Assembly (NCBI GenBank): GCA_947628535.1
Contig: CANRAF010000002.1
Location: forward strand, 1 to 41,199
Length of the DNA stretch: 41,199 nucleotides
Direction of reading: 5' to 3'
DNA from: an uncultured Bacilli bacterium
GTDB lineage: Bacteria; Bacillota_I; Bacilli_A; RF39; UBA660
The notes under the pieces are model-generated. The model ran no database searches. It was not told where the DNA came from and saw only the letters and a list, made by a program, of their open reading frames with translations. Positions 20,807 through 32,703 of this stretch are shown one piece after another. The position numbers and the translations under genes were made by a program. Within the stretch, counting starts at the first letter, position 1. The number at the start of each line of letters is the position of its first letter.

Positions 20807-23365
20807 TTAATAGTGATAACATTTATAGCGTTTCGAACAACCATCTTTGACCTTTGTACATTTTTGACATACCACGTAGTAGCGGACCCAAAGAGCAGGA
20901 TTAGAATTTGGATGAGCTGCAGAAGTACAATTAGAGACTCCATCACGAACATACTTCCATCCAGCTCGACAGTTTGGAGTTGTAAGGACTTGTCTAACAT
21001 TACAATCACTATATATTGTGTCCGTATTACAACTAGTTTTATACTTCCAAGTTTTACAGTCACATGATGAATTTTCTGAATATACTGCTACTTTATATGT
21101 ATAATCATTTGATTTTGTGTTCCCTGCTTTATCTTTACATGTTCCTGCTAACTTAAAGTTTTCGTGTGGACCCGTTAATTTATAGGTATGATCATGGACT
21201 TGGCTGTGTGGGCTAGTTAAATTGGTATCATGAGTAAATGTACTTATTCCACTTCCACCTGAATCTGTACATTTTATGGTTGCTTTAAATGGTTTTGAAC
21301 TTGATGCTGGATAAAAACTTTTTCCACTTACTTTAGATCTATTTGCCGTATATGTTATTTTTGGTGGCTTTGTATCTATTCTTACTGGTGTTTGCGCTAC
21401 TTTACTTACATTTCCCGCTTTATCTGTTATTCTAACATAGAATGTGGTATCTCTATCTGTTGAAGCATTTGGAGTCCATGTTATTTTTTTATTATCTGTT
21501 GTTTTACTATCAAAGCCACTTGTCTTTGTTATATAACTTGCTGCTCCATTTTTATATTCAAGTTTTGCTATTCCACTTTCTGAATCTTTTCCTGTTATTG
21601 TTAATGTTACAGTTTTTTTTGTCCATTTACCACCACTTGAATTAGTTAAGGTTATAGTTGGTGCTTTTTTATCTATTTTTATAGATGTTGATATTGTAGC
21701 ACTTATATTTCCTGCTCCATCTATTGCTTTTGCATAATATGTCTGCGTGCTTGATTTGGCTTCTGTATATGTTTTATTTGTAGGTAGATTTGTTGTAAAT
21801 CCTGTTGTCTTTTCCTTATATGTTTTGTTATCTGTTGAATAATATACTTTTACTCCAGAACCTCCTGCATCAGTTGCCTCTCCTGTTATTGTTACATTAT
21901 CTTTTGACCATACTCCATTTTTTGGATTAATTAATGACATACTAGGAGCAATAGCATCTACTTTTATATTTGGTCCTTCTACTCTATTATTACTTTTTCC
22001 TGTATCTAAAGCTGAGAAAAATCCTTCTTCTAACACTACATTATCTGTTCCTGATACACTTGATTTCGTAGTATAATCTATATCATATATTACTTTGTTT
22101 CCAGTATTATTATTTGTTTTACTACTTATTCTTGGTGTTAATGTTCCTAATCCTTTATTTGATTTTAACTTGTTTTGGTTCATTGTTGCTTGATTTCCTT
22201 TATATACGTAGCACTCTACTTGTTCTGTTTTCTTTTTTAAAGTACCTCCATACCATTTTCCATCATCTTTTGTTAAAAATGTACAATATGCATTTTCATC
22301 TTTAAACATTGTTATTTTTATATCTTTCTTACATGTATTGGTTTGTCCTATTTCATCCATTACATATCCGTAGTATGTTCCGTCTTTTTTTCCACTTAAT
22401 GAGTATTCTTTTAATTTCTCTCTTTGTTGTATAGTATAATCACTTTTGTCTTTTATTGTATAACTTAAATCTTTTTCTTCTGAGATTTTATCTTTTACAT
22501 CTATTGTTATCTTTTTTTCTTCTTTAGATTTTGGTGGATTTGGATATGATAATTCACATGTTGGTTTTGATGTTTTTATTACAAAATTCGCACAACTATC
22601 TGATATATGTCCTCCATTATCTACTATTGTTATTCTATATTCCCCTTCTTTTCTTTTAAAGTATTCACTATTTTCTATATATTCTCTTAGGTTCATATTC
22701 ATTGTATCGCTATCTTTGTCTTTGGCTCCTACTGTTATTTCTTCTTCTGTTGTTATATTTTTTATTATTATATTAGAAATTTTTTTATTATCGCTTATAC
22801 CTTTTAGTTTTATTGATGTTGGATTATATCTTTTTCCAGTTATTGCCCCTTGTTTTCCACCTTCATAAGTTGCTTGGTCACATGTTGGTCGTTCTGTATC
22901 ATCCCAATCTATTATATTACATACTGCATCATTGTCACTATAATTTAGTACTTTTCCTTCTTTATTTGTACATCTTAAACATGCATGCCATTCATATTCA
23001 CTGTTTTTATCTTCATCTGGCCTTACATACACATAGCTTTCACTGCATTCATTTCCATCTGCATCTATAAATTCTTTACTTACATAATTATTGCTTTGCA
23101 TCTCTGGTAGACTTACGTAACTATAATCTTTTCCGTCTTTATATATACCTGTATAATATTTTACTGGTAGTTTTTGTCTGTTATCTGTAAAATATTCTTT
23201 CCCTGATATTAATAATTGATCTTTTAACTTTTCATTATACTCATTTTTTCCGTTTTGAATATAACTAGTTACTAATGGTATTGCTATACCTGCGAGTACT
23301 GCTATTATAGCTACTGTTACTAGTATTTCTACCATTGTAAATCCTTTTTTGTTTACCTTTTCCAT
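20807..23365 (-). CDS. Very large pilin-like (type IV prepilin N-terminus) surface protein with Ig-like domains
   Basis: About 852 residues from the chosen start. The N-terminus is a prepilin signal: a short charged leader ending KKG, cleavage before F-T-M-V-E with glutamate at +5, then a hydrophobic helix (VEILVTVAIIAVLAGIAIPL). The rest is extracytoplasmic: a cysteine-containing head, then at least three Ig-like repeats (about residues 480-760) with the recurring pattern of GxWxKxxVTxT, a YY/Y-A/V-x-D-x-A-G-N end and a linking IDxxxP. A cysteine-rich tail (more than ten Cys in the last 90 residues) ends the protein. Normal pseudopilins have 100-200 residues. No pilus ATPase, platform protein or prepilin peptidase is nearby. 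Starts at 23395 and 23377 are also possible. Its promoter suggests phase variation. Confidence 0.85.
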   Translation of the reverse strand: MEKVNKKGFTMVEILVTVAIIAVLAGIAIPLVTSYIQNGKNEYNEKLKDQLLISGKEYFTDNRQKLPVKYYTGIYKDGKDYSYVSLPEMQSNNYVSKEFIDADGNECSESYVYVRPDEDKNSEYEWHACLRCTNKEGKVLNYSDNDAVCNIIDWDDTERPTCDQATYEGGKQGAITGKRYNPTSIKLKGISDNKKISNIIIKNITTEEEITVGAKDKDSDTMNMNLREYIENSEYFKRKEGEYRITIVDNGGHISDSCANFVIKTSKPTCELSYPNPPKSKEEKKITIDVKDKISEEKDLSYTIKDKSDYTIQQREKLKEYSLSGKKDGTYYGYVMDEIGQTNTCKKDIKITMFKDENAYCTFLTKDDGKWYGGTLKKKTEQVECYVYKGNQATMNQNKLKSNKGLGTLTPRISSKTNNNTGNKVIYDIDYTTKSSVSGTDNVVLEEGFFSALDTGKSNNRVEGPNIKVDAIAPSMSLINPKNGVWSKDNVTITGEATDAGGSGVKVYYSTDNKTYKEKTTGFTTNLPTNKTYTEAKSSTQTYYAKAIDGAGNISATISTSIKIDKKAPTITLTNSSGGKWTKKTVTLTITGKDSESGIAKLEYKNGAASYITKTSGFDSKTTDNKKITWTPNASTDRDTTFYVRITDKAGNVSKVAQTPVRIDTKPPKITYTANRSKVSGKSFYPASSSKPFKATIKCTDSGGSGISTFTHDTNLTSPHSQVHDHTYKLTGPHENFKLAGTCKDKAGNTKSNDYTYKVAVYSENSSCDCKTWKYKTSCNTDTIYSDCNVRQVLTTPNCRAGWKYVRDGVSNCTSAAHPNSNPALWVRYYVVCQKCTKVKDGCSKRYKCYHY

Positions 23366-23389
23366 ATACTCCTCCATATACTCCTCCAT
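23366..23389 (-). repeat. Tandem 12-bp repeat duplicating ribosome binding site and start codon
   Basis: Reading the minus strand, ATGGAGGAGTAT occurs twice in tandem and is followed by ATGGAA. Each unit supplies GGAGG five bases before an in-frame ATG, giving two equivalent start sites (23377 and 23365), both with ideal Shine-Dalgarno pairing. Confidence 0.9.
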
Positions 23390-23412
23390 ATCCATATTTT
23401 GTTTCTATTTTA

Positions 23413-23442
23413 ATGATACCCCCCCCCCACGACTTTTGTCAA
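23413..23442 (-). promoter_or_regulatory. Promoter with G10 tract in the spacer, candidate phase-variable switch
   Basis: Minus-strand -35 TTGACA (23437-23442, perfect consensus) and -10 TATCAT (23413-23418, five of six) are 18 bases apart. Ten of those 18 bases are an uninterrupted G run (C10 at 23419-23428 on the + strand) abutting the -10. Loss of one G would give the optimal 17. This layout is known from phase-variable promoters such as Neisseria porA; the switch here is inferred. Confidence 0.8.
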
Positions 23443-23455
23443 TGCTTTTTTACAT

Positions 23456-23480
23456 AAAAAAATTCTAAAATAAATTAGAA
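23456..23480 (-). terminator. Terminator of dnaE
   Basis: On the minus strand TTCTAA-TTTATT-TTAGAA (23463-23480) is followed by seven T. It lies directly upstream of the pilin-like promoter and insulates it from dnaE. Confidence 0.7.
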
Positions 23481-23492
23481 CCTTTTTATATA

Positions 23493-26399
23493 TTAATTAT
23501 CATTTATTATTTCTATTTCATTACAAATTACTTGATATTCATCAAATCTTTTCTCTACTTTTCCATTGACTTTAATGATTTCATTTTTCTTAAATTTATT
23601 TATTTCTTTATAAAGGTTTGGAAAAACTATAAAAGTTGTACTACCAGTATTATCTGATGCTGTTAAGAAGGCCATTACTTCATTTTTCTTAGTAACTATC
23701 TCTTTTATTTTATCGATTGATGCAATAAATAGTGCTCTTTTATTTAATAGATTTTTAATATCATAAATATCAGTAATATTTTTATTTTGAAGTTTATATT
23801 TTTCAGTTTTATGACTTGTTAGATAAAAACCAAATATTTCTTTTTCTTTATTTAAAATCTCATCTATAGGTAATTCTTCAAATAACTCAATTTCTGGTTT
23901 TACAAGTGAATCTTCTTCTATTTCTGCTATAAGTTCTGTATAATTTAAGATATTATCTAAATTATTTATTAAAGTATTTATGTTATAAAATGATGAAAAT
24001 GCATGAGAGTAAATTAACGATTCTATAACTTTTTTATTATTAGTTTTTTTAAATGTTCTTTTGAAAAAATCATAGATGTCTTTATATGGAGTTTTTCTTT
24101 CTTTAACAATGAAACTTGAGATAACTCCTCCAACATTTCTAATAGCTGAAAGTGGCAATATTATTGAACCATTGCTTACTAAATATCTGTCATTTAAACT
24201 TTTATTTATGTCAGGTGGAAGAACTTTTATTCCTAGTTTTTTTACCTCATTTAAATACTCTTTAGTTTTTTCTTCACTTCCAATTACTCCAGAGAGAAGA
24301 TTTGCATAAAATTCTCTTGGAAAATAACATTTTAAATAAGCCATTTTATAAGCTACTATTGAATATGATACAGAGTGGCTCTTATTAAATCCATAATTAG
24401 CAAATGCAAGAATTAAATCAAATAATTGTTTAGCCTTTTCTTTGTTATGTCCCATTTGTACTGACTTTTCAATAAATTTAGTTTCTTCATCTTTTAACAC
24501 TTCATATTTTTTCTTACTCATTGCTCTTCTTAAAATATCTGCTTCTGCTAAAGTGTAACCAGCAAATTTTCTTGCAATTAACATTATTTGTTCTTGATAA
24601 ATAATTATTCCATATGTTTCTTCTAAGATATCTTTTAGGGAATCGTCTAAATATTCTATTTTCTCTTTTCCTTCTTTTCTTCTTATAAATGATGGAATAT
24701 TTTGTGCTGGTCCTGGTCTAAATAAGGCAATAGCATTACATAAATCTATAAAGTTTTTTGGTTTTAAATCTTTTAAAAATCTTCTCATACCATCTGATTC
24801 AAACTGAAATATTCCTGTTGTATCTCCTATTTCAAAAAGCCTCATGACTTTAGGATCATCAAATGGTATTTTGTTAAAATCTATTTTTTTATTTTCGAAT
24901 ACTTCTATATCTTTTATGACATTATCTATAATCGATAAATTTTTTATTCCTAAGAAATCCATTTTGATTAAACCTAAATCTTCAAGATATTCCATAGTGT
25001 ATTCAGTTAGATTTATATCATCGTTTGTTTTAATTGGTACAATATCAGATAAATCTTTATAACTTATAACAATTCCTGCAGCATGAATACTGGTATGTCT
25101 TTTATTACCTTCAATTAAGTCAACAATATTATATAAAAGTTTTAATTTATCATCACTTTCAATTAAAGTATTTACTTCTTTGTCTTTATGTTTCAATTCT
25201 TTAAGAGTTCCTTTAAATGGTATTTTTTTACATATTATATCAATATATTTAGAATCAATATTTAATATTCTTCCAACATCTCTTACTGAGGCACGTCCTC
25301 CTAAAGTTCCAAAGGTAATAATACCTGCGACATTATCATTTCCATATTTATTTTTTACATATTCAATTACTTCATCTCTTTTTGTATCTGGGAAATCAGT
25401 ATCAATATCAGGCATTGTTATTCTCTCAGGATTTAAAAATCTTTCAAAGAGAAGATTATATTTTATAGGGTCAACATCTGTTATACCAAGGCAATAAGAA
25501 ACTAAAGAACCTGCAGCAGACCCTCTTCCTGGACCCACTAAAATGTTATGTTGTTTTGCATATTTTATATAATCATAAACTACTAAAAAATAGTCTTCAA
25601 AATGCATATTTATAATAGTTTTAAGTTCATATTCTAACCTATCTACATATTTTTTTTCTAAATTGCCATTTAATCTTTTGATAAGACCTTTCTTGCTTAA
25701 GCTTATTAAATATTCTTTGGAAGAATCACTATACTTTGGCATAAATAGTTCTTTTTTAAAAGAAATAGAACATTTATCCGCTATTTCTAAAGTATTATTA
25801 ATGCTTTTCATACTAACTTTATTTATTACTTCGTCATTTGTAAATAAATAGTTATTTTCATAGATAAATTCTATCCCATCACTTATTGTTTTTCCATCTC
25901 TTATCATAAAAATATAAGGAAGGTATTTATATAGAGCTTTTTCTAAATACAAAGTTTTATTTAAAAAAACAGTATTATATCCTTTTAAAGAGTCTTCCTC
26001 TTTTTTATTTTGTACACCAATATAAAGAGATGAAATTATGTCTTTATATTTTTCAAAACTTTCTTTTGATAAGGCTATTCCAATAAGATGAGAATTATAT
26101 TTTTTTATTATTTCTAATGACAAGTTATCTTTATTTTTAATTGTTTCTATTTTTACTAAATTATAATATCCTTCTTCATTTTCAGCATAAAGAATTATAT
26201 CTTTTAAATCAAGACCAATTATTGGTTTTAATCCAGCTTTTTCAAATTTTTTTACTATTTCCATGGTACCATATAAATTATCATCTGCAATACCACATGA
26301 AGAAATGCCTTTTTTCTTAAGGTTTTCTATTAAGTCATCTACTTTTATAAGACTTGAAAGCAAACTATAATCTGTTTTTATATAAAGTGGACAGTACAT
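23493..26399 (-). CDS. dnaE: DNA polymerase III alpha subunit DnaE
   Basis: A replicative C-family polymerase of 968 residues. An N-terminal PHP domain (IKTDYSLLSSLIKVDDLIENL, KPIIGLDL) is followed by the palm with GPGRGSAAGSLVSYCLG and the catalytic PDIDTDFPD segment, fingers (RRAMSKKKYEV), the SHSVSYSIVAYKMAYLK region and a C-terminal OB domain. The PHP metal-binding His-x-His-x-His of active forms is replaced here by P-L-Y-I-K, and the later D-H by D-D, so proofreading by this domain is unlikely. Smaller than usual DnaE (about 1100-1160). The ATG at 26405 is one base from AAGGAGG; ATG at 26399 is at proper spacing. Confidence 0.95.
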   Translation of the reverse strand: MYCPLYIKTDYSLLSSLIKVDDLIENLKKKGISSCGIADDNLYGTMEIVKKFEKAGLKPIIGLDLKDIILYAENEEGYYNLVKIETIKNKDNLSLEIIKKYNSHLIGIALSKESFEKYKDIISSLYIGVQNKKEEDSLKGYNTVFLNKTLYLEKALYKYLPYIFMIRDGKTISDGIEFIYENNYLFTNDEVINKVSMKSINNTLEIADKCSISFKKELFMPKYSDSSKEYLISLSKKGLIKRLNGNLEKKYVDRLEYELKTIINMHFEDYFLVVYDYIKYAKQHNILVGPGRGSAAGSLVSYCLGITDVDPIKYNLLFERFLNPERITMPDIDTDFPDTKRDEVIEYVKNKYGNDNVAGIITFGTLGGRASVRDVGRILNIDSKYIDIICKKIPFKGTLKELKHKDKEVNTLIESDDKLKLLYNIVDLIEGNKRHTSIHAAGIVISYKDLSDIVPIKTNDDINLTEYTMEYLEDLGLIKMDFLGIKNLSIIDNVIKDIEVFENKKIDFNKIPFDDPKVMRLFEIGDTTGIFQFESDGMRRFLKDLKPKNFIDLCNAIALFRPGPAQNIPSFIRRKEGKEKIEYLDDSLKDILEETYGIIIYQEQIMLIARKFAGYTLAEADILRRAMSKKKYEVLKDEETKFIEKSVQMGHNKEKAKQLFDLILAFANYGFNKSHSVSYSIVAYKMAYLKCYFPREFYANLLSGVIGSEEKTKEYLNEVKKLGIKVLPPDINKSLNDRYLVSNGSIILPLSAIRNVGGVISSFIVKERKTPYKDIYDFFKRTFKKTNNKKVIESLIYSHAFSSFYNINTLINNLDNILNYTELIAEIEEDSLVKPEIELFEELPIDEILNKEKEIFGFYLTSHKTEKYKLQNKNITDIYDIKNLLNKRALFIASIDKIKEIVTKKNEVMAFLTASDNTGSTTFIVFPNLYKEINKFKKNEIIKVNGKVEKRFDEYQVICNEIEIINDN

Positions 26400-26474
26400 A
26401 AGCATTCCTCCTTAAATATATTTTATCACACAAACATATATTTTTATAAATTTTTATCATTTTTTATTATTTAG

Positions 26475-31545: not shown

Positions 31546-32703
31546 TTATTCCTCTTTTTCTTTTATTTCTTCTTCTATTTTAGCAATATTTTGCTCTTTT
31601 GCTATGTCTTCATAAGTACTTATAAAAACCTCTACATACATTCTACCATTTTTAACGTATTTTTTCAAAGTTTTTTCCTTTATTATGTACTCATCTTTAT
31701 TTAATGTTTTATTTATTTCATTTTTAGCCTTAGTTTTTAGAATATTTTCTAGATTTTTTTCAGTATATTTATCCCTTTTTAATTTATAATTTTTTTCATG
31801 TTTTAAGAAAATAGTAAATATATCATTTTTAAAAAGAGTTCTGTTTTTAGATTCTTTAGAAGTTTTAATTTTGAATAATGTAATTTCTTTATTTTGCACT
31901 TTTAAAGATAGTTTTAAAGTATTTTTGTTAAGGGGCTCTAAACTGGAGTAATTTAAGTTTTCATTTAATTTTACTATATACCAAACTTCAGCATAGACTT
32001 TTCCAGATGCTTTTACTTTTCCTACTACTTTATCATTTCTATGAATGTTACCACTTATTATTATTTCTCCTTTTTTAACGTAATCATCTATATTCTTTAA
32101 AAGTTCTCCTTTTCTTGAATATACTTTTCTAATATAACCATTTTTTTCTGCTACAATGTCTTTTAACTCTGTGTTTTCTTTATTTTTATTTCCTACACGT
32201 TCAATTACTTTAACATTTAAATTAACACCTTTTATACTTAATTCAAGCCATTCGATACTATTTTCGTTTTCAGCTTTTATTTTAGATTTTACTTCATTTA
32301 GATAGTCATAATCTTTTTTAAGAGAAAAAAGAGTTATTCCATTTTCGTTTAACTGCTTTTTTATTAAATTTTTCATGTTACTATTATCTGTTTCGATATT
32401 TATAAAAAGAATAAAACTTGACATAAATATAACAAAAAAAATACTTATGATAAAGATAAGCAGAGATATTTTATATTTTTGATATTTTTCTATTATATTT
32501 AGTTTCCCTGATGTTTTTATAATATTTATTTCATAAGAGGTTTTAATTTGTTTTATTTTTTTATATGAATCATATGATACTTTTAAAAGAGTTCTGTCTT
32601 TTTCATATTTAATGTTTTCAATATTTATGTTTTCTTTAAATATTTTTACAAGTAATCTTTTAGTATTTTTTCCTTTAATTTCTATCCAAAAATAGTTTAA
32701 CAA
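31546..32703 (-). CDS. yqfD: Sporulation protein YqfD family
   Basis: A 385-residue protein with one membrane helix (about 78-103) after a cytosolic domain and a larger outer domain. Segments such as WLELSIKGVNLNVKVIER, then DIVAEKNGYIRKVYSRKGE and YVKKGEIIISG match YqfD. In Bacillus it is produced in the mother cell under sigma-E and needed for efficient spore formation. The start is TTG at 32703, after GGGTGATAAA, which overlaps the yqfC stop. Lysine-rich; the first gene of the pair is yqfC. Confidence 0.85.
   Translation of the reverse strand: MLNYFWIEIKGKNTKRLLVKIFKENINIENIKYEKDRTLLKVSYDSYKKIKQIKTSYEINIIKTSGKLNIIEKYQKYKISLLIFIISIFFVIFMSSFILFINIETDNSNMKNLIKKQLNENGITLFSLKKDYDYLNEVKSKIKAENENSIEWLELSIKGVNLNVKVIERVGNKNKENTELKDIVAEKNGYIRKVYSRKGELLKNIDDYVKKGEIIISGNIHRNDKVVGKVKASGKVYAEVWYIVKLNENLNYSSLEPLNKNTLKLSLKVQNKEITLFKIKTSKESKNRTLFKNDIFTIFLKHEKNYKLKRDKYTEKNLENILKTKAKNEINKTLNKDEYIIKEKTLKKYVKNGRMYVEVFISTYEDIAKEQNIAKIEEEIKEKEE

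Follow-up and report, generated by a model that had tools for sequence, protein, structure and literature searches.

The window, meaning the whole analysed stretch of 41,199 nucleotides from an uncultured Bacilli bacterium, carries on its minus strand a polC-type gene, a terminator-like hairpin, a compact promoter with an embedded homopolymer and a gene for a large pilin-like protein, arranged as follows:

20807..23365, minus strand: 852-aa pilin-like surface protein with a prepilin N-terminus and Ig-like domains, the gene proposed to be switched
23367..23390, minus strand: two 12-bp tandem repeats (ATATGGAGGAGT-like) in the leader, each with an SD-like GGAGGAG and an in-frame ATG
23413..23418, minus strand: -10 box TATCAT, five of six consensus bases, spacer 18
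23419..23428, minus strand: G10 homopolymer flush against the -10 box, the proposed slippage tract, a design that the genome repeats 11 more times
23429..23436, minus strand: fixed 8-bp part of the spacer, AAAGTCGT
23437..23442, minus strand: -35 box TTGACA, perfect consensus
23450..23492, minus strand: terminator-like hairpin (18 bp stem, 3' arm rich in T) that separates the polC-type gene from the promoter
23493..26405, minus strand: polC-type gene (DNA polymerase III alpha), upstream neighbour outside the switch

The placement of the G10 tract between a -35 and a -10 box, as stated in the original prediction, is exact, with TTGACA-N8-G10-TATCAT on the minus strand, a spacer of precisely 18 bases and 11 of 12 consensus bases in the two boxes together. 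The plus strand at 23413-23442 reads ATGATA-CCCCCCCCCC-ACGACTTT-TGTCAA, equivalent to TTGACA-AAAGTCGT-GGGGGGGGGG-TATCAT on the minus strand from 23442 to 23413. The promoter is located 48 bases 5' of the 852-aa gene and directly 3' of the strong terminator-like hairpin (MFE -15.9 kcal/mol, z -7.6 versus shuffles), while a GC-based terminator scan detected nothing, being blind to this hairpin because of its AT-rich stem. The likely start of the pilin-like gene is, by alignment with its paralogue, the ATG at 23365 and not the longest-ORF start at 23395. The two leader repeats precede this ATG, and a change in their copy number would keep the frame while start sites are gained or lost. A conserved synteny of the pilin-like and polC-type genes was considered and found no support, as three genus relatives possess other genes after polC and in a fourth the contig ends.

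The pilin-like nature of the downstream gene, equally anticipated, has been confirmed by profile matches above cut-off to PF07963 N_methyl (29.3 bits, cut-off 21.2; E-value 5.5e-7) and TIGR02532 (28.9 bits, cut-off 16.3), accompanied by the Ig-like domains Big_7 (6.7e-8) and Big_3_2 (9.6e-7), and a class III signal peptide with a hydrophobic N-terminal helix is present. As the gene scores far below cut-off against the GspG, PilA and ComGE models and thus matches no full-length family of pilins or pseudopilins, it is called only 'pilin-like'. The host genome encodes the prepilin peptidase PF01478 and two small pilin-like genes; the prepilin signal and Ig-like domains together with the genomic PF01478 suggest that the protein is surface-exposed. 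The closest pilin-like paralogue is preceded by a promoter of identical design with AAAGTATA in place of AAAGTCGT, and the two differ in tract length, with G10 (spacer 18) in the window versus G9 (spacer 17) in the paralogue. The two proteins (20807-23365 and L049:3398-5719) are near-identical over the N-terminal 60 residues and strongly diverged in their C-terminal Ig-like parts, a pattern which would be expected under diversifying selection or recombination.

A G10 tract in DNA of this composition was expected to be improbable by chance, which holds under all models applied: with the tract masked during fitting, G or C runs of at least 10 are expected 8e-4 times per window by an order-1 Markov model, 1.4e-4 times by order 2 and 1e-2 times by order 3. 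The uniqueness of the tract is restricted to the window, where a scan for G or C runs longer than six retrieved nothing else and the next longest run is C6 at 5326; in the genome, 21 tracts of at least nine G's were found, a set extending to tracts inside coding sequences that the original prediction had overlooked. A chance origin is rejected on the basis of these Markov expectations and of the reversed-pattern controls given below.

The host genome (G000; 933,275 bases on 20 contigs, with genome-wide counts taken from pattern searches and fetched stretches) contains these 21 G-runs of at least nine against a Markov expectation of 0.02-0.9, all of them pure and 9-11 long. Twelve are promoter spacers and nine are located in 5' coding parts. 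The 12 promoters consist of TTGACA, 6-9 bases, G9-11, 0-3 bases and a -10-like box, which puts the boxes 16-19 bases apart, according to the -10 box selected. Downstream of them lie genes for a pair of pilin-like proteins, for several proteins with signal peptides that match Listeria-Bacteroides repeat, SH3 and, weakly, LRR models, and for two zinc-ribbon proteins, of which at least one has a membrane anchor. A hydrophobic N-terminal segment is found in 10 of 11 complete products versus 7 of 29 genes of the window (p=2e-4), and surface or envelope functions appear to prevail among the genes equipped with G-tracts.

In the assembly, six of the nine coding tracts keep the reading frame, and three (C1:148019, C5:17667 and C15:18674) do not. 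Six of the nine belong to one family of long, mostly LamG-bearing proteins, in which the tract directly follows codon 6 (ATGAAGAAAATTATGTCT-G9/10). Copies of this LamG-type surface protein family, distributed over C1, C3, C5 and other contigs (L048, L050, L051, L054, L057, L058), are partly in and partly out of frame. The remaining coding tracts are found in two ATP-grasp glycan genes and one lipoprotein-like gene. The two ATP-grasp genes, associated with sugar transfer, carry G10 each, both in frame (C4:40084 and C4:43386; L056), and might point to phase-variable glycan or capsule synthesis. As a separate observation, genes for spore germination (GerAC, spore permease), a YlbD coat-like protein and YqfD occur at L310 (G000:C11:18000-28000) and at 31546-32703 of the window, hinting at a spore-forming ancestry of this 0.93-Mb genome.

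Comparison among promoters strongly supports the interpretation of the locus as a phase-variable promoter, as put forward originally, through the 11 further promoters of the same design in the genome, through the distance between -35 and -10 boxes that relatives hold while its parts vary, and through near-identical copies that differ in tract length. In a set of 73 promoters (13 genomes), 3 to 10 bases precede the tract, the tract itself has 8 to 14 and 0 to 7 follow it, yet the box-to-box sum is 16-21 in 72 of the 73, with a mode of 19. This sum has a variance of 1.5 across 23 cassette classes, against 12.7 with the parts shuffled, ties in the choice of the -10 box having been broken towards 18; because this choice favoured 18, the test was repeated with a spacing-neutral choice of the -10 box (p 0.001 and 0.016). 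That the spacing peaks at 18-19 and not at 17 points to a sub-optimal state in many of the assembled promoters, whose expression would then rise upon loss of G's.

With one genome of the host species at hand, differences in tract length are those between near-identical copies, orthologues and paralogues, in short-read assemblies that count homopolymers imperfectly. In relative G016, eight copies that share 93% identity in the 30 bases downstream of the tract possess G9, 9, 10, 11, 11, 13, 14 and 14, and in a related genus three species have a lipoprotein promoter whose flanks are almost the same and whose tract is G10, G10 and G12. The copies in G137 are nearly all G9, so that some cassettes look stable or recently amplified. 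Variation of tract length within the host species, with an effect on transcription, would be in line with these comparisons. On the other hand, the tract might have been a switch in an ancestral promoter cassette that was later duplicated, and be neutral at this locus today, as promoter cassettes have clearly been copied within genomes and the two pilin-like paralogues share their promoter. A neutral G10 should decay in AT-rich surroundings, though, and with 21 of 21 host tracts still pure and 9-11 long and both promoter boxes intact, such a relic is considered very improbable.

Beyond the host, the pattern TTGACA-N4-11-G8 is found in 35 of 145 genomes of the family, compared with 2 of 145 for the reversed-pattern control, and in 48 of 394 genomes of the class, compared with 0 of 394. 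A stricter pattern matched at least 117 contigs of named genomes, many of them rabbit-gut Bacilli and Clostridia assemblies; among the matches listed are also Saccharibacteria, spirochaetes, Helicobacter, Streptobacillus and others. Long homopolymers in assemblies can arouse the suspicion of a sequencing or assembly artefact, that is spurious poly-G from two-colour Illumina chemistry or at contig ends, and indeed some tracts of relatives are no more than about 100 bases away from a contig end, with one of them (G113:C56), a G15 followed by a run of A's, looking artefactual. The tract in the window, however, is embedded in the interior of a contig of 119 kb and bordered by unique sequence to either side, its position between the boxes and its orientation to the gene are reproduced in dozens of independent genomes, and an artefact would know neither gene polarity nor spacing compensation. 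A two-colour artefact has thus a next to negligible probability and is rejected for the window locus, and retained for the one contig-end tract.

The number of G-runs of at least nine per family genome ranges widely, with none in 65 of 145 and at least ten in 24 of 145. The G-tract set seems to come and go quickly, since the sole genus relative in the 145-genome family sample has one such run. Four family genomes (G040, G089, G098 and G151) contain 34-46 G-tracts of at least nine each and no match to the TTGACA-spacer pattern; therefore their tracts must occupy other contexts. In another genome (L309; G443:C6:7000-24000), five genes on one strand of a 17-kb stretch have near-identical signal peptides and promoters (TTGACAAATTGAATAC-G9-TATAAT) and diverged mature parts.

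When C8 replaces G8 in the promoter pattern, matches fall to control level, with 1 of 145 family and 2 of 394 class genomes. Promoter tracts are thus almost always G and hardly ever C on the non-template strand, a regularity not accounted for by spacing alone, since poly-C works in Neisseria opc (PMC3960869). Conjectural causes are a partially extended -10 element (G at -14) and strand-specific slippage. Such strict polarity (G- versus C-spacers in 48 versus 2 of 394 class and 35 versus 1 of 145 family genomes), which pure switching of spacer length does not need, favours a G tract that is a fixed structural or protein-binding promoter element, such as a weak stiff spacer or a help to RNA polymerase through non-template G's, with length change being incidental. 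Still, a fixed element is regarded as unlikely, as tract length differs among near-identical copies (G9-14) and orthologues, as equally long G tracts are present inside reading frames of the host, where only slippage makes sense, and as the homologue in the genus relative G003 possesses a promoter-like TTTACA-18-TATAAT without a G run.

A slipped-strand promoter switch of the porA type, embedded in a genome-wide set of contingency loci, is consequently considered highly likely, judged from sequence comparison. On the observed sequence design, its recurrence, the held spacing, the length differences between near-identical promoters and the mixed coding frames is built the interpretation that the tract varies by slippage and that its length would set expression. 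In this mechanism, the G10 tract would be the variable spacer of a predicted sigma-70/A-type promoter, in which slipped-strand mispairing would add or remove single G's and thereby change the distance between the -35 and -10 boxes from 18 as assembled to 17 upon loss or 19 upon gain of one G. The altered spacing would turn transcription of the pilin-like protein up or down at random in individual cells. Equally, the nine coding G9-10 tracts would act as translational on/off switches, and the 12 promoters and nine coding tracts together would constitute a phase-variable repertoire of surface and envelope genes. As eleven more such promoters and nine matching G-runs inside genes exist, the host very probably switches surface proteins up and down at random by DNA slippage. 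Loss of mismatch repair as a cause is rejected, as MutS1 is intact in the host genome and in nearly all relatives; with MutS1 present, repair loss is unneeded, and slippage may occur less often than in organisms deficient in repair.

Several class relatives of this tiny-genome family are gut metagenome assemblies, and the host might, from its relatives, be a gut commensal. A recent review from 2025 considers species with multiple phase-variable loci still relatively uncommon and what looks like their restriction to pathogens an open question (PMC11868660), which is why scale and lineage matter. In the family, 24 of 145 species have at least ten G-tracts of at least nine and a quarter have promoter-spacer tracts, so that the question of pathogen restriction becomes directly testable with existing metagenome reads. 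Furthermore, the preference of G over C in promoter spacers could reveal how tract sequence, beyond length, matters. A broader conjecture, possible rather than probable, is that poly-G cassettes have been repeatedly acquired and amplified across uncultured gut Bacilli, not known as pathogens, to give large phase-variable surface repertoires, and, at the same time, that the near-absolute G polarity reflects a tract that does more than spacing, such as influencing RNA polymerase or strand-specific slippage. In the open-access literature, a search brought up no relevant work on phase variation by homopolymers among uncultured lineages, an absence which is weak evidence.

The comparisons with porA and opc drawn in the original prediction are borne out by the literature (PMC3639595; PMC3960869). 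By its anatomy, porA of Neisseria meningitidis appears to be the system that works alike, with a run of 9-11 G's between -35 and -10 in front of a gene for a surface protein (PMC3639595); at the window locus the homopolymer is equally located between recognisable -35 and -10 boxes, and the spacer of 18 is near the functional window. In porA, a strain with 11G has yielded antibody-escape variants with 9G and 10G (PMC3639595), and graded expression from spacer length would be expected for the pilin-like gene as well. Unlike porA, the host belongs to another phylum, the product is a pilin-like Ig-domain protein and 12 promoters of related cassettes are present in one 0.93-Mb genome. Neisseria opc is likewise a surface protein controlled by a promoter homopolymer of variable length (PMC3960869), which is, however, C in opc and G in the host promoters, C-spacers being at control level in the host lineage. 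The G9-12 tracts of the sortase-pilus genes in Bifidobacterium breve, a gut bacterium that switches pili by slippage, resemble the nine coding tracts of the host; in contrast to the host promoter, they are intragenic translational switches of sortase and not prepilin-type pili (PMC9187656). Helicobacter canadensis and Campylobacter are reported to have sets of phase-variable genes with many G/C homopolymer loci per small genome, intergenic and intragenic as in the host (PMC2823697; PMC8355987), but are Campylobacterota, whereas the host is an uncultured Bacilli-type organism with MutS1 and homologous promoter-spacer cassettes. The kind of switch is already known, a familiar trick rarely reported on such a scale outside pathogens, while its scale, lineage and polarity are new.
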